From NCBI RefSeq assembly GCF_011734195.1, contig NZ_JAANTH010000002.1, positions 868,001-932,000 of the forward strand: a stretch of 64,000 bases of DNA. The letters are read 5' to 3'. The notes beneath the pieces were generated by a model. That model did no database searches. It had not been told where the DNA came from and saw nothing but the letters and a program-made list of their open reading frames with translations. This DNA comes from Halobacterium sp. R2-5. GTDB lineage: Archaea > Halobacteriota > Halobacteria > Halobacteriales > Halobacteriaceae. Made by a program: the position numbers and the translations under genes. Shown piece after piece: positions 5,481 to 29,489 of the stretch (position 1 is its first letter; every line of letters begins with the position of its first letter).

Positions 5481-6929
5481 TCAGACCCGGTCGACGACCG
5501 TCTCCTCGTCCACGACGAGGTTGTACGCCTCCTCGTCGTCGTTCCAGAGCACGAGCGCGGACTCCAGGGAGAGCAGGTCGCCGTAGTCCGCTTCGCGGAG
5601 GTCGCGGTTGAGGCTCGTCGGCCGGACGAGCACCGCGTAACACTCCTCGCGCTCGCTGCCGTCGCTCACCTTGAACAGGGGGTTCCCGTCTTCGGCGAGG
5701 TTCCGGGAGAGCTTCGCGAGCACCGCGTCGACGCGGTCCGTGACGCGGTCGTCGGCGTCCGCGAGCTTCAGCAGCCGGTCGGCGGACAGCGAGACCTCGT
5801 GCTGGCGGGCCCCGTCGGTACGCAGCAGCGAGTACGAGAACCGGACGTCGGTGTGCGAGAACTCGGAGGGGCGCTGGCTGGCGTCCGCGAGCCGCTTTTG
5901 GAACCCCGGCTGTTCGACCGCGGGACGCTCGTCGAACGTCCAGCCGCGGTCGCTCGGGCGTTCGCCCGGCCACAGCCGCGGCGTCGGGCCGTAGACGGTC
6001 GCGCCCCGGGATTCGAGGTCGCGTTCGACCTCGCGGAGGTGCGTGCTCGTGTGCTTGTCCGCGGGTGCGAGCGCGAGGAACGTGCCATCGTCGGCGAGCG
6101 CGTCGACGTACCGCTGGGCGGTCTCGACCGGCTCGTCGAGTTCGCTGAGCACGCTGCACGCCATCACGAGGTCGTACTCGCCGTCGGGGTCGAAGTCCTC
6201 GGCGGTCTCGCGGTGAATCGTCGGGTGGACGTTCCGCCCGGTCTCGTCGAGCAGTTCGTCGAGGACGTCCGCGGCGTCGCTCGGCTCGACGGCGTGGTAC
6301 TCCACGAGCGCGTCGTCGGGCAGGAAGTCGAAGAGGCCGAGCGCGGGGCCGCCGACGCCCGCGCCGACGTCCAGCACGCGCAGGTCGTCGGTCAGAAGGC
6401 CGCCCTCGGCGAGGTCGTCGAGGACGTACTGGGCCGCGGCGTAGTACGTCGCGAGGTGGTAGACGGCGTACCCGAGCGCGACCTCGTAGTCGTACTCGAC
6501 GGGGTGCTGGCGGTAGTAGTCCTCCTTGAACCGCCGAATCGTCTCCCGGAGCTCCTTCCCGGAGTCGCCGGTGTGCCAGTCCGCGCCCCAGCGCTCGATC
6601 AGCAGGTCCTCGACGACGCGCTCGTACCGCTCGGGGAGCGCGTCCACGCCGTCCCCAGAACGCTCTGCGTTCTGGCGGGCTACGGAAGACGGCTGTGCCG
6701 TCTTCCGAACGTCGAACTCGGGGCGTACCGGCTCGCCGCTCGCCGGGACGAAGATGCCGTCCTCGCGCTCCACGAGGCCGAGGTCGGCGGCGTGCTCGCG
6801 TAACACCTGCCGCACGACCGCCTCGTGGGGCTGGCTCTCGACGTACTCGCGGAGCTCACCGGGGTCAAGCGGCCGCACGCCCCGGAGGTACTTCGCGGCG
6901 TCGAGGACCGCGTCCCTATCGACCGGCAT
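5481..6929 (-). CDS. Rsm22-family ribosomal small-subunit SAM methyltransferase-like protein
   Basis: A 482-residue protein with an N-terminal helical region and a Rossmann methyltransferase core beginning LRVLDVGAGVGGPALG (about residue 184), followed by YHAVEPSD, which binds the SAM ribose, and DLVMACSVLSEL. These features and the N-terminal layout resemble the Rsm22/small-ribosomal-subunit methyltransferase family. The substrate is not established for archaea. Residues about 74-91 are encoded by a two-hairpin palindromic insertion (6655-6710) that looks foreign to the fold, in the linker before the methyltransferase core. The start overlaps the end of the prephenate-dehydrogenase-like gene by 14 bases, so the two are probably co-transcribed. 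Confidence 0.75.
   Translation of the reverse strand: MPVDRDAVLDAAKYLRGVRPLDPGELREYVESQPHEAVVRQVLREHAADLGLVEREDGIFVPASGEPVRPEFDVRKTAQPSSVARQNAERSGDGVDALPERYERVVEDLLIERWGADWHTGDSGKELRETIRRFKEDYYRQHPVEYDYEVALGYAVYHLATYYAAAQYVLDDLAEGGLLTDDLRVLDVGAGVGGPALGLFDFLPDDALVEYHAVEPSDAADVLDELLDETGRNVHPTIHRETAEDFDPDGEYDLVMACSVLSELDEPVETAQRYVDALADDGTFLALAPADKHTSTHLREVERDLESRGATVYGPTPRLWPGERPSDRGWTFDERPAVEQPGFQKRLADASQRPSEFSHTDVRFSYSLLRTDGARQHEVSLSADRLLKLADADDRVTDRVDAVLAKLSRNLAEDGNPLFKVSDGSEREECYAVLVRPTSLNRDLREADYGDLLSLESALVLWNDDEEAYNLVVDEETVVDRV
6655..6710 (-). repeat. In-frame two-hairpin palindromic element, copy 1
   Basis: Two perfect adjacent hairpins: an 8-bp stem with TCT loop at 6656-6674 and an 11-bp stem with TGT loop at 6683-6707, separated by 8 bases. 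Read in the coding direction the cassette gives RKTAQPSSVARQNAERS within the Rsm22-like protein. A related copy in the same frame and orientation relative to its host gene lies at 28701-28757. It is too structured to be ordinary coding sequence. Confidence 0.8.
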
Positions 6930-24136: not shown

Positions 24137-27010
24137 TCACCAGAACGCCTTCGTGCGGGCGTACTCGCGCTCGCGTTCGAGGATGTCCCGGTAGAAGTCC
24201 GCCTCGTCCTCGCGGTGGCGGTTGATAACGCGGGCGGCGTTCCGCGGGCCGACGCCGCGCGCGGACAGCGCGACGACGGCCTTCCTGCCGTGGCTCTGGA
24301 CGAGGCTCGCGTTCCGGAACACGCGCTCCGTGCGGTCCTCCTGCTCGTCGTCCTTCTCGCTGGTCTTGACCGCTGTCACGGCGTCGTCGGCCCACGGCGA
24401 CAGCGCGGCGATTCGCGTCGACCCGCAGAGCGGGCACTCCGGCTGGTCGCTGACCCTCCGCACTTTCGTCTCGTGTTCCCAGTCCCGACAGTGCGTGCAG
24501 AACAGCTTCACGCGGTCGTCCCGGATGCGGTCCCGGACCGCCTGCACGACGCTCGCGTCCGCGTTCTCCGGGGTGAGGAGTTCCGTCCCAGAGGACCGCC
24601 CGCCGACGCCGATGGCGGTGCGCTCGCCGACGATGGCGACGTCGAGGTCCCCGGACTGGATGCCGTCGAGCACTTCGCTGGCGCGCTCGACGTCGAGGTC
24701 CGTGTGGAACACCTCGCGGATGGCCTCGTCGTAGACCGGCGTGTCTTCGAGCGCGCCCAGCAGCCGGGAGAGCCCGACGCCGTCCCTGCCTTTCCAGCGC
24801 TTGAGCGCGCCGAACTTCGCGGCGACCTGCGCGAGCGTGAACTTCAGCGTCTCGGACTGCTTGAGGCTGAGCTCCAGCAGCGGCTCGACGTGGTCGGGGT
24901 CCGTATCCCGGAGCAGGTCCACGACGTCGTTCGCGCTGATGCGCGCCGGCACGTCCAGCTCGACGCGGTACGGGCCGACGTCCAGCCCCACGGAGGAGCC
25001 GGTGCGCTGGCCGAGTAGGGCCGACAGCAGCCGGCCGATGGTCTCGTTGGCCTCGTGACCGAGCGCCGCGTTCACGACGATCGTCCGGCCCTCCTGCTCG
25101 ACGACGATGCGATCGTCGCTCGGCACCGGGTTCCCGGAGTCGACGTGGTACTCGACCTGTTCGAGCGCCTCGCTCGCGGTGTAGTCGTCCGTCGGGTAGC
25201 GGCCCGTGAACTCCCGTGCGACGCTCTCACGCAGCGCGTGAGAACTCGACGAGCTCTGCTCGTCGGTGGCCTCGCGGGTCGCGCCGGCCTCGAACTGGTC
25301 GGCGGCGACCTCGCGCATCTCGCCGACTTCCTGTGCGACGTCGTAGGGCACGGGAATCTCCTGACCCGTCCACGACGGCACCTCGCCGGCGGGGTCCTCG
25401 ATGGGGGAGACGTTGACCTCCTCCTCCTCCTCGTCGATGTTCGTGATGCGCCACATCTCGCCGCGCTGGACGAACGTCGCGCCGGGTTCGGCGAAGTTCA
25501 CGACGAAGCGCTCGTCCAGCGTCCCGACCTGCCGGCCCCCGGCCATGTCGTAGACGGCGTACGTCTCCTCGTCGGGAATCATCGAGAGGTTCGCGTAGTA
25601 GTACTGCCACGTCCCCCCGGACTTCGAGAGCGTGTCGTCGTCCTCGTCGACGTACACCACGCGGTTGTTGTGCAGTTCCATCGCGACCTCGCGGAACGTC
25701 TCCTCGTCGAGGTCCCGGAACGGGTACGCTCGCGTCACGATCTGGTAGGCGTGCCGGGCGCTCGTCTCCCCGAAGTCCATCACCACGCCGACGATCTGGT
25801 TCGCGACCGTGTCGAGACTGCCGTGGTGAATCTGCGTGACCTCTACTTCCCCGGCTGCTGCCCGCCGGGCGATGGCGAGCGCCTCGAACGTGTCGTCCGG
25901 GCTGCCCGTGATGACCGTGCCGTGGCTGACCTCGTCGCGGCGGTGGCCGGCGCGCCCGACACGCTGCAAGAGCCGAGCGACCTCCCGCGGCGACGAGTAC
26001 TGCACGACGTGGTCGATGCGGCCCACGTCGATGCCGAGCTCCATCGACGACGTGCAGAGCAGGCCGTCGATTTCTCCGGCTTTGAACCGGTCCTCGACCT
26101 CGATGCGCGCGTCCTTCGACAGCGACCCGTGGTGGACGCCGATGTTCGCGTCCAGTTCCTTGAACCGCGACCCCAGCGCCTCCGCGGTCTGGCGGGTGTT
26201 CACGAAGATCAGCGTGGAGTCGTGCTCGTCGACGATCTCCTGAATAGCGCGCACGTGGCTCGCCATCGACGGCGACGTCATCAGCTCGTTGCTCAGGCGC
26301 TCGTCGCCGTCGGTGACCTCGGGCTCGCGCACCGAGAACTCCACTTTCGACGTGACGTCCACCTCGATGATCTCGCAGCCGCGGCCGCCGGTGAGGAACG
26401 CCCCCACCTCCTTCGGGTCGCCGACCGTCGCCGACAGTCCGATGCGCTGGAAGTCCCCCGCGAGTTCCACGAGTCGCTCCATTCCAATCGAGAGCTGGGC
26501 GCCGCGCTTCGCGCCCGCGAGCTCGTGGACCTCGTCGACGACGACGTGCTCGACGTCCGTGAGACCGTCCCGGAGCTTCTCCCCGGTGAGCATCGCCTGC
26601 AAGGTTTCGGGCGTCGTCACGAGCACGTCCGGCGGGTCGTCGGCCTGCTTCCCGCGCTGGTACTGGGTCGTGTCGCCGTGCCGGACGTCCACGTCGAGGC
26701 CGAGCGTCTCCCCCCACCAGTCGAGGCGCTCGCGCATGTCGCGGTTCAGCGCGCGCAGCGGCGTCACGTACAGCGCCGCGAACCCCTCGGGCGCGCCCTC
26801 TTCGACGATGCTGTTCAGCACCGGGAGCATCGCCGTCTCCGTCTTCCCCGTGCCCGTGGGCGCGACCACGAGCCCGTTCCTGCCGTCCGCGAGCGCGGGA
26901 ATCGCGCGGCGCTGTGGCTCCGTCGGCGTCGTGAACCCGCGCTCGGAGAGCGCCGCCCGCACCTCGCTGCCGAGGTGGGCAAACGCGTCCATCCCCCGCG
27001 TCTCACTCAT
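24137..27010 (-). CDS. lhr: Lhr-type large helicase
   Basis: A 957-residue superfamily-2 helicase. RecA-like domain 1 has Q motif TEPQRRAIPAL, Walker A APTGTGKTE and DEVH box VVVDEVHEL; domain 2 has LQRVGRAGHRRDE (motif VI). The Lhr core winged-helix and beta-barrel domains follow. The C-terminus has a Cys4 zinc ribbon (CTHC...CPLC). Lhr enzymes translocate 3' to 5' and act in DNA repair. Residues about 582-594 come from a palindromic in-frame insertion (25225-25265) rich in Ser. It is downstream of rpa1-rpap-rpe, a gene context pointing to replication and repair. Confidence 0.95.
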   Translation of the reverse strand: MSETRGMDAFAHLGSEVRAALSERGFTTPTEPQRRAIPALADGRNGLVVAPTGTGKTETAMLPVLNSIVEEGAPEGFAALYVTPLRALNRDMRERLDWWGETLGLDVDVRHGDTTQYQRGKQADDPPDVLVTTPETLQAMLTGEKLRDGLTDVEHVVVDEVHELAGAKRGAQLSIGMERLVELAGDFQRIGLSATVGDPKEVGAFLTGGRGCEIIEVDVTSKVEFSVREPEVTDGDERLSNELMTSPSMASHVRAIQEIVDEHDSTLIFVNTRQTAEALGSRFKELDANIGVHHGSLSKDARIEVEDRFKAGEIDGLLCTSSMELGIDVGRIDHVVQYSSPREVARLLQRVGRAGHRRDEVSHGTVITGSPDDTFEALAIARRAAAGEVEVTQIHHGSLDTVANQIVGVVMDFGETSARHAYQIVTRAYPFRDLDEETFREVAMELHNNRVVYVDEDDDTLSKSGGTWQYYYANLSMIPDEETYAVYDMAGGRQVGTLDERFVVNFAEPGATFVQRGEMWRITNIDEEEEEVNVSPIEDPAGEVPSWTGQEIPVPYDVAQEVGEMREVAADQFEAGATREATDEQSSSSSHALRESVAREFTGRYPTDDYTASEALEQVEYHVDSGNPVPSDDRIVVEQEGRTIVVNAALGHEANETIGRLLSALLGQRTGSSVGLDVGPYRVELDVPARISANDVVDLLRDTDPDHVEPLLELSLKQSETLKFTLAQVAAKFGALKRWKGRDGVGLSRLLGALEDTPVYDEAIREVFHTDLDVERASEVLDGIQSGDLDVAIVGERTAIGVGGRSSGTELLTPENADASVVQAVRDRIRDDRVKLFCTHCRDWEHETKVRRVSDQPECPLCGSTRIAALSPWADDAVTAVKTSEKDDEQEDRTERVFRNASLVQSHGRKAVVALSARGVGPRNAARVINRHREDEADFYRDILEREREYARTKAFW
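25225..25265 (-). repeat. In-frame two-hairpin palindromic element, second type, in lhr
   Basis: Two adjacent perfect hairpins with 8-bp stems and 3-base loops: TCTCACGC-AGC-GCGTGAGA (25225-25243) and CGACGAGC-TCT-GCTCGTCG (25247-25265), three bases apart. In the coding direction the sequence gives DEQSSSSSHALRE inside the helicase. The architecture matches the elements in rsm22 and rpap although the sequence differs. Confidence 0.65.
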
Positions 27011-27830: not shown

Positions 27831-29489
27831 CTAGATGGCTTTCAGGTGGTCGTCGCCGGACTCGTAGCAGCGCCCGCTCATCAGCGCCTCCTGGATGGCG
27901 TCCTCGATCTCGCCCTCGTCGGCGTCGCGTTCGTCGGCCGCCGTCGCGACGACGTTCTCGCGGAGCGCGCCGTCGCCGTCGTCGAGCTCGTCCATCAGCT
28001 CCACGACGTAGTCCTCGAGGTCGAGGTCCATCGACGCGGCCTCTGAGTCCTCGCTGTCCGACTCGGGCTCGTCGTACTCCTCGGCCGTGAAGTCGTCGAG
28101 GTCGTCGGCGTCCTCGTCCTGGGCCTCGTCGAACGCCTCGTCCTCGGCGTCGAAGTCCCCAAGGTCGTCACCGGCTTCGGATTCGGAGTCCGCAGCAGGC
28201 TCTTCGTCCGGTTCGGGCGCGTCGATGTCCGACTCGCCCGCGTCCGGCACTTCCGAGCCCGTGGAGAAGCCGACGTCGTAGTTCTCCTTGACCTCCTCGC
28301 GCTCCTCCTCGGAGAGCTCGTACATCTCGCCGTCGCCGGCCGCCTCTTCGCCCTCCGGTGCGGCCTCCGCGGCCACTTCGTCGGGTTCGGGGGTCTCCGC
28401 CGCCGGACCGGGTTCGGTCTCCGTCTCCGCCTCGGATTCGGACCCTCCGGTCTCGGACTCGGTTTCCGCTCCTGTTCCCGCGGACTCGTCGCCGAATCCC
28501 TGCGCTTCGGGTTCGTTCAGCTCCTCGTCGTCAGCGGCGGGCGAGTCGGGCTGCTCGGCGCCGAACCCCTCTGCCTCGGGCTCCGTGGCCGGCTCGGGTT
28601 CGCTCTCAGCAGCTGATTCCGCTTCGGCTTCCGCTTCGAGGTCGTCCTCCAGGTCGGCTTCGTCGCCCGCCGGTTCCTCGGGGGACTCGATCTCGACGTC
28701 CTCAGACCGCTCTGCGTTCTGATGGGTTGCGGAAGACGACTGCGTCGTCTTCCGAACGCCGAGGTCGGTCGCGAAGTCGAGGGGCGCGTCGCCCTCGTCG
28801 GTCGGGGCGACGGAGAGCTCGCCGACCTCGTCGCGCTCGCCGGCGACGACGCGCGCGGCGTCCAGCGCGAGTTCGCGTACCGCGTCGAGGTACGCCGGCG
28901 TCGTGCCGTAGTGGTCGAGCGCGAGCGGGATGCCCGCAGCGAGTCCGGGCTGGACGCCCCCGCGTTCGAGCACCTCGCGGAGGGTGTCGCCGCGCTCGAC
29001 GCGCTCGTGGGCGGCCGCCATCGTCGCCACGCGGTCGACGGTCTGCTCGGCGGTCGACACCACCCAGCGGTCGCGGGTCTCGGCGTCCACCTCGCTGACC
29101 TCCTCCGGGCGAATCGACGTGTAGACGACGTCCGCGTCGTCCGGCTGGAACGTTCGGGCCTTCCCCGTCACCGCGACGAACGACGGCGTGTCCGCGGATT
29201 CGAGCGCCGCCAGCGCCTCCGGCTGGTACTGGCCGGCGTAGACGACGAACGCGCCCGTCGGGTCGACGACGCGCGCCCGCACCACGTCCTCGCTGACCTG
29301 CTCGACCTCCGTGAGCACGCCCACGACGAACACGCGGTTGACGCGCGCGCCGGTCGGCGTCACCACGTAGTTCGGCGCGCGTTCCTCGTCGCTCTCCGCG
29401 TAGCTGTAGTCCGCGTCCTCGAACTCCGCCGCGAACAGTCGGTAGGCGACCTCGCGGCGGTTGACCTCCTCGGAGTCGGACGAACTCAT
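27831..29489 (-). CDS. rpap1: RPA-associated protein (RPAP) with long acidic C-terminus
   Basis: A 552-residue protein. The N-terminal 230 or so residues are the COG3390 RPAP domain, with an OB-like region (VNRVFVVGVLTEVEQVSEDV, VYAGQYQPEALAAL) that works with RPA in haloarchaeal DNA metabolism. A palindromic cassette encodes residues about 245-263 (RKTTQSSSATHQNAERS). Then follows a roughly 220-residue low-complexity Glu/Asp/Ser/Pro tail and a conserved C-terminal segment (MDLDLEDYVVELMDELDD...GRCYESGDDHLKAI). The start overlaps the rpa1 stop by ATGA, so the pair is translationally coupled. Confidence 0.9.
   Translation of the reverse strand: MSSSDSEEVNRREVAYRLFAAEFEDADYSYAESDEERAPNYVVTPTGARVNRVFVVGVLTEVEQVSEDVVRARVVDPTGAFVVYAGQYQPEALAALESADTPSFVAVTGKARTFQPDDADVVYTSIRPEEVSEVDAETRDRWVVSTAEQTVDRVATMAAAHERVERGDTLREVLERGGVQPGLAAGIPLALDHYGTTPAYLDAVRELALDAARVVAGERDEVGELSVAPTDEGDAPLDFATDLGVRKTTQSSSATHQNAERSEDVEIESPEEPAGDEADLEDDLEAEAEAESAAESEPEPATEPEAEGFGAEQPDSPAADDEELNEPEAQGFGDESAGTGAETESETGGSESEAETETEPGPAAETPEPDEVAAEAAPEGEEAAGDGEMYELSEEEREEVKENYDVGFSTGSEVPDAGESDIDAPEPDEEPAADSESEAGDDLGDFDAEDEAFDEAQDEDADDLDDFTAEEYDEPESDSEDSEAASMDLDLEDYVVELMDELDDGDGALRENVVATAADERDADEGEIEDAIQEALMSGRCYESGDDHLKAI
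28701..28757 (-). repeat. In-frame two-hairpin palindromic element, copy 2
   Basis: Hairpin 1 (28703-28721) has the CAGACCGC-TCT-GCGTTCTG form with one mismatch; hairpin 2 (28730-28754) is a perfect 11-bp stem with TGC loop. The spacer is 8 bases, as in copy 1. The longer stem differs from copy 1 by a paired G-C to A-T change that preserves pairing. It encodes VRKTTQSSSATHQNAERSED in the RPA-associated protein. Confidence 0.82.

Follow-up and report, generated by a model that had tools for sequence, protein, structure and literature searches.

An in-frame two-hairpin insert in the haloarchaeal helicase gene lhr and its probable place in a family of mobile palindromic elements

The lhr gene and its double-hairpin insert

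The window analysed here, a 64-kb stretch of DNA from Halobacterium sp. R2-5, carries on its minus strand the gene lhr (24137–27010), which encodes an Lhr-family helicase of 957 amino acids with 5v9x and 7lhl as its best solved relatives. Two hairpins lie within this gene, each with a perfect stem of 8 bp and a 3-nt loop. On the forward strand they read TCTCACGC-AGC-GCGTGAGA (25225–25243) and CGACGAGC-TCT-GCTCGTCG (25247–25265), with the spacer ACT separating them. On the coding (minus) strand the cassette reads CGACGAGC-AGA-GCTCGTCG, AGT, TCTCACGC-GCT-GCGTGAGA, and the hairpins are numbered in this order below, the first being that at 25247–25265 and the second that at 25225–25243. The lhr reading frame reads through both hairpins as DEQSSSSSHALRE and, with their edges, as TDEQSSSSSHALRES. 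Two perfect hairpins of this form, in frame inside lhr at 25225–25265, were what the original prediction had described, and both proved exact.

Lhr orthologues are present in all 12 congeneric genomes, with identities of 81–94%. In a codon alignment, 11 of the 12 lack 15 residues of the window protein, and the gap measures exactly 45 bp. This delimits an in-frame insert of 15 codons at 25223–25267 (minus strand), the edges of which are ambiguous by a few bases. The insert corresponds to residues 582–596 and falls near residue 656 of the Mycobacterium smegmatis Lhr-core structure 5v9x, in a stretch that is weakly aligned. The prediction was to be refuted by a Ser-rich segment common to most Lhr orthologues; as 11 of the 12 congeners are without the 15 residues, this comparison does not refute it. 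The alignment shows that the cassette came as one block in this lineage. The twelfth orthologue (L008) has 39 unrelated, non-palindromic base pairs at the same place, without the two-hairpin form; thus, this loop of Lhr tolerates other insertions.

A second site of insertion in Lhr follows residue 738 in the numbering of the window protein. Here the orthologue in G006 (L012) carries a different 45-bp double-hairpin insert (YRTTSGRPSASADDG), with the hairpins TACCGGAC-TAC-GTCCGGTA and GTCAGC-TTCC-GCTGAC on either side of GGCC. L008 has an insert at this site as well, again non-palindromic and without the two-hairpin form.

Palindromes might arise by chance in a Ser-rich, GC-rich coding stretch, and single 8-bp stems are indeed not rare, about four being expected per 64 kb. 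In the window, 12 perfectly paired stems reach 8 bp or more around a 3-nt loop, against 3.7 ± 2.0 in 30 dinucleotide shuffles (largest value 7). Pairs of hairpins no more than 12 nt apart are another matter: two were found against a mean of 0 in the same number of shuffles, namely the lhr cassette and a cassette at 6655–6707 of the type termed QNAERS. As a single strand the lhr cassette folds with −23.7 kcal/mol (z = −4.5), and none of 200 shuffles folded equally well. Over 864 kb from five genomes of the genus, stems with 3-nt loops (100 against 66 ± 6) and 4-nt loops (85 against 66 ± 3) are in excess, and no excess was seen for loops of 5–8 nt. Given that hairpin pairs are unexpected, that the stretch is a lineage-specific insert and that homologous cassettes occur in other genes, the last of which already refutes it, the chance reading retains virtually no probability.

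Relatives of the cassette within the genus

When the whole 41-mer was searched for with up to three mismatches, it was found in lhr only, both in 13 genomes of the genus and in 26 of the family. The cassette at first seemed to be an orphan, a status that was overturned once each hairpin was searched for separately. The first hairpin, stem included, occurs exactly in three of the 13 genus genomes and is a module common to relatives. The second is a variable module, with no match other than lhr in the 13 genomes at up to one mismatch. Within these genomes, the search of other haloarchaea suggested by the original prediction fails for the 41-base sequence as a unit and succeeds for its first hairpin. 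Since the 41-mer is single-copy in the 26 family genomes, no recent activity of the lhr subtype is seen in this genome.

A sister cassette lies in a HisC-like gene of the congener G006, where the exact first lhr hairpin is followed by a closely similar second one (DNA CACCGACGAGCAGAGCTCGTCGAGCAATCACGCGTCGCGTGATGACGTG, peptide TDEQSSSSNHASRDDV). The inner six pairs of the second stem, TCACGC/GCGTGA, are common to both cassettes. One pair further out they diverge in both arms, with C-G in lhr and A-T in the HisC cassette. The latter is a clean 45-bp insert that is missing from all 12 orthologues.

Cassettes of the QNAERS type are found twice in the window, both on the plus strand. The one at 6655–6707 belongs to a 60-bp insert that is missing from four of four syntenic genomes. 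The other, at 28702–28757, lies in a gene near lhr, and the orthologous stretch is missing in two of four syntenic genomes and divergent in the other two. Among the matches listed there are 15 copies of this type, in seven of the 13 genus genomes. The lhr cassette had been taken to be unrelated in sequence to these, a view contradicted by copies in which an lhr-type first hairpin is joined to a QNAERS-type second one. Such combinations occur in Natrialba Hef (TDEQSSSSDQNAERSE) and in the congener G008 (VDERSSSGNQNSKSSDDA), where the second hairpin is TCAGAACTC-GAA-GAGTTCTGA. The lhr and QNAERS cassettes are thus two combinations within one superfamily. A second hairpin of the TCAGAAC type was found at 36 places in 10 of the 13 genus genomes (none in the control) and is preceded, in the copies read, by at least 10 different first hairpins, the lhr type included.

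The edges of the cassettes have some features in common. GAC is found near both edges in most copies. On the coding strand of lhr the tag CGTC stands closely after the second hairpin, and it also borders many QNAERS-type copies; relatives of the lhr type mostly have GAC on both sides. Repeats of 4 bp flank some QNAERS-type copies, and none is certain at lhr, where the edges are ambiguous.

Hairpin-bearing insertions are more widespread than these two types. A census covered 864 kb of syntenic sequence from five genomes. An insertion was kept only if it was apparent relative to two or more other genomes, and a hairpin was counted where a perfectly paired stem of 7 bp or longer enclosed a loop of 3–4 nt. 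Hairpins were present in seven of 10 insertions of 36–66 bp and in none of 26 insertions of 12–35 bp (p = 1.4e-5), leaving three of the longer insertions without one. As two of the seven share one site, in G005 and G009, the count by site is six of nine. Only 2.3% of random 60-bp windows contain such a stem. The stems of the census insertions differ in sequence, and the TCGCGGGCNNNGCCCGCTCG set is represented many times in the genus, the control giving six matches. Three further observations concern elements of other make-up. Another genus-wide double-hairpin family, seen for example in L120, L131, L228 and L229, combines TCGCGGGCnnnGCCCGCTCG with a second stem that varies, one form being CGAGGGACnnnGTCCCTCG. 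A hairpin insert of 50 bp, a length that is not divisible by three, is present at G009:C1:1508537-1508586 and missing from four other genomes. Finally, a 120-bp composite of several hairpins lies within one gene at G005:C1:1859120-1859240 and is inserted relative to four genomes.

Distribution, host proteins and reading frame

A family pattern, CGACGAGCNNNGCTCGTCGRGNNNTCA, was built from lhr-type copies. Among one genome each of 84,980 species, its exact form matched seven records, all seven from Halobacteria (a Halobacteriales MAG, Halobacterium, Natrinema, Halolamina, Natrialba, Halorussus and Halococcus). With up to one mismatch it had 36 matches, spread over 28 of 391 haloarchaeal genomes and 17 of 86 genera, and the reversed control gave none. 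Viral contigs contained neither lhr-type nor QNAERS-type hairpins. The original prediction had envisaged that palindromic elements lying in frame form a family in this genome; the lhr and QNAERS cassettes bear this out, and the family extends beyond this genome to others of the class.

Thirty of the 36 places could be read as loci, and together with the seven exact-pattern records, minus repeats, they provide 33 distinct copies. All 33 are read from one strand and in one frame, within open frames of 173–1373 amino acids. Of 20 such reading frames that were scanned, 17 contain a Pfam family in the frame of the cassette, the exceptions being L179, L180 and L155. The host proteins comprise an MFS transporter, a Hef-like helicase/ERCC4 protein, an M20 peptidase, FolD, a valyl-tRNA synthetase-like protein, adenylosuccinate synthetase (PurA), TsaD/Kae1 with a kinase domain, a lipoyl acyltransferase, D-aminoacyl-tRNA deacylase, a T2SSE ATPase, a class I/II aminotransferase, Cdc6, a LonB-like AAA protein, an alpha/beta hydrolase, AAA_22, PEBP and an LMW phosphatase. 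Relative to solved structures the cassettes form extra residues in FolD (3p2o), Kae1-Bud32 (3en9) and ValRS (1gax).

In the Kae1-Bud32 host, seven distinct copies were read (L156, L166, L170, L172-L175), with a conserved second stem, CAACAGGC/GCCTGTTG. This conservation suggests an old insertion that was vertically inherited. As several class-wide copies, those in Kae1 and Hef among them, look vertically inherited, the 36 matches represent fewer independent events. A secretion-ATPase-like reading frame of Halorussus (L149, 4150-4240) contains two lhr-type cassettes in tandem.

The second hairpin keeps its form in most copies. A stem of 6–10 bp with a 3-nt loop, 3–5 nt after the first hairpin, is present in 24 of the 33 copies (in one with a single mismatch), and at random points the same criterion was satisfied 191 times in 60,000. 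In eight further copies the second stem is imperfect, long-looped or decayed, and L155, which is without a second hairpin, is probably a chance match. Because the 24 copies have 12 different second stems between them, the second hairpin varies while its pairing is kept. In a swapped-arm test on 22 of the 33 copies, the others being dropped as orthologues or repeats, 99% against 47% were paired, figures that are biased towards pairing by the choice of the best stem. Together with the occurrence of the TCAGAAC-type hairpin behind so many first hairpins, the varied second stems indicate that the element is modular.

The perfect arms, and the differences in the second hairpin from copy to copy, would also be seen if each site had acquired its hairpins de novo, through fold-back template switching in replication, with no need of a mobile element. 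Moreover, the right part of the lhr insert (CGTGAGAGC) resembles its left flank (CGCGAGGCC) better than it does the flanks of any of 18 other hosts, a resemblance that is weak over the 19 hosts, since 84 of 2000 shuffles were equally good. Thus, the notion that the second hairpin may have been copied from the target flank is weakly supported. Fold-back switching, however, cannot yield an identical first hairpin in unrelated genes of distant genera, and relative to the empty sites of lhr and hisC all arms of both hairpins are new. As a full explanation of the cassettes it is improbable.

Benefit to the host gene is similarly unlikely to account for them. A cassette kept as an adaptive peptide linker, or as a regulatory hairpin in the mRNA, would explain why 33 of 33 copies share a frame and hydrophilic residues, and why the stems vary while the pairing stays. 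Against this, the functions of the hosts are unrelated, most orthologues are without a cassette, and the frame and the acidity would also result from purifying selection alone.

A probable mobile element that persists by translation

Protein-coding palindromic elements are recognised by a palindromic block placed in frame in conserved genes and by repetition at unrelated loci. Both are found here: the site is empty in 11 of 12 orthologues for lhr and 12 of 12 for hisC, and 28 of 391 genomes have the pattern, at 36 places. The cassettes are inserted as blocks, are dispersed among unrelated conserved genes and keep a single frame, and their hairpins behave as exchangeable units. It is therefore probable that the lhr cassette is a copy of a haloarchaeal family of non-autonomous mobile two-hairpin elements, some 45–60 bp in size, which persist through harmless translation. 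An enzyme supplied in trans would recognise the hairpins, probably as single-stranded DNA, and spread copies of them. Selection would then retain only those insertions that preserve the frame in tolerant loops, frame-breaking ones being purged. The translation of the cassette is a hydrophilic loop rich in Asp, Glu, Gln and Ser; the element would persist because it is translated harmlessly, and no gain for Lhr need be assumed. The single frame may have been imposed by selection favouring the acidic, Ser-rich reading, or it may reflect Asp codons being the preferred target.

A more specific version of this proposal is possible, if tentative, in which modular double hairpins invade proteins class-wide. 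Their modules would be recombined or re-made on moving, the second hairpin perhaps from the target flank, and would be spread by some unrecognised activity that is not a resident Y1 transposase. On the same tentative footing, copies would keep their architecture and not their sequence.

The source of mobility bears on a further alternative. Haloquadratum walsbyi harbours PATEs, some of which, according to the portions of PMC3119063 available, are terminal-only forms of 52 bp that have a pair of near-terminal palindromes and lack target duplication. Like the PATEs so described, the cassettes are haloarchaeal, very small and free of a transposase, with palindromes near their ends. The two hairpins could thus be the left and right ends of an IS200/IS605-type element, recognised by its Y1 transposase and joined after loss of the core, and the size, the palindromes and the lack of a clear duplication all fit. 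PATEs, however, derive from IS605-type ends, and no link of the cassettes to Y1 elements was found in the genus or in class-wide co-occurrence. Y1 transposase has no match in this genome and is present in seven of 13 genus genomes, and both lhr hairpins are missing around all 23 Y1 matches in the genus. Across the class, Y1 is rarer in cassette-bearing genomes (14 of 28) than in others (253 of 363; p = 0.036), an association in the negative direction. Nor do the available portions of PMC3119063 contain PATE insertions inside proteins in one fixed frame. A resident Y1 transposase was accordingly not supported as the mobiliser, there being no match in this genome and no positive class-wide association; these data argue against a resident Y1 and not against a past or different one. 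An origin as a PATE-like remnant is doubtful, and a mobile family persisting through translation is preferred.

A 54-bp QNAERS-like double hairpin was encountered in two copies of a Y1-bearing insertion sequence (L094 and L100, near 920-974) and is missing from a third (L089). It was considered as the end of a parent element and rejected, since it is itself an insert that the L089 copy is without.

The best reading is that the family is similar in kind to the Rickettsia palindromic elements (RPEs), being modular, non-autonomous and protein-coding. As far as the accessible parts of PMC2996958 and PMC2229807 describe them, RPEs of Rickettsia and Wolbachia are short palindromic mobile DNA that interrupts unrelated housekeeping genes without breaking the frame, typically where the protein is non-structured, and the cassettes resemble them in being in-frame palindromic inserts in such genes. 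The differences, on the same partial accounts, are that RPEs measure 105–146 bp (PMC2229807) and have long stem-loops and terminal inverted repeats, whereas the lhr insert has 45 bp, two separate 19-nt hairpins and modular exchange. Within the scan of 84,980 species the cassettes are restricted to haloarchaea, and the likeness to RPEs is one of kind, by description. Palindromic coding repeats of Methanocaldococcus jannaschii (Suyama 2005), as cited in those parts of PMC2229807 and PMC2996958, are likewise archaeal palindromes fused into protein genes, and by that citing description the cassettes resemble them.

The cassettes share traits with REPs of the GTAG/CGTC superfamily, which occur as dimers inside genes (PMC3733652). 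In CGTC-tagged REPs the stem opens with two A/T positions and the loop has 4–5 nt (PMC3733652), whereas the first pair of the cassettes is C-G or T-A and the second C/G, the lhr stems starting with CG or TC, and the loops have 3 nt. Furthermore, REPs are mostly intergenic and the cassette copies all lie in open reading frames. In Nematomorpha mitochondria, perfect inverted repeats are translated inside genes; the stems there are long, with arms that code for conserved residues, according to the excerpted text of PMC6649704, whereas the arms of the cassettes encode inserted, dispensable ones. The cassettes do not qualify as MITEs, as the two ends of the lhr insert are not linked by an inverted repeat and target duplication is not clear. 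The double-hairpin elements of Allomyces mitochondrial DNA are very small mobile units of two hairpins. The cassettes may correspond in architecture to these mitochondrial elements.

No description of haloarchaeal elements of this kind was found in the open-licence literature, and other journals may hold one. Selfish DNA inside proteins has been described for the most part in bacteria with an obligately intracellular life and in a single methanogen, according to the parts of PMC2996958 available. The haloarchaeal family, which looks like selfish DNA surviving by being translated, strikes genes of replication, translation and tRNA modification in a free-living and genetically tractable setting. 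This setting allows one to ask how such elements move, why one frame is kept and whether the proteins change, and natural pairs of filled and empty sites are available for Lhr, HisC and others. Ser/Asp/Glu-rich loops of haloarchaeal proteins may, on this evidence, be inserted DNA and not salt adaptation.
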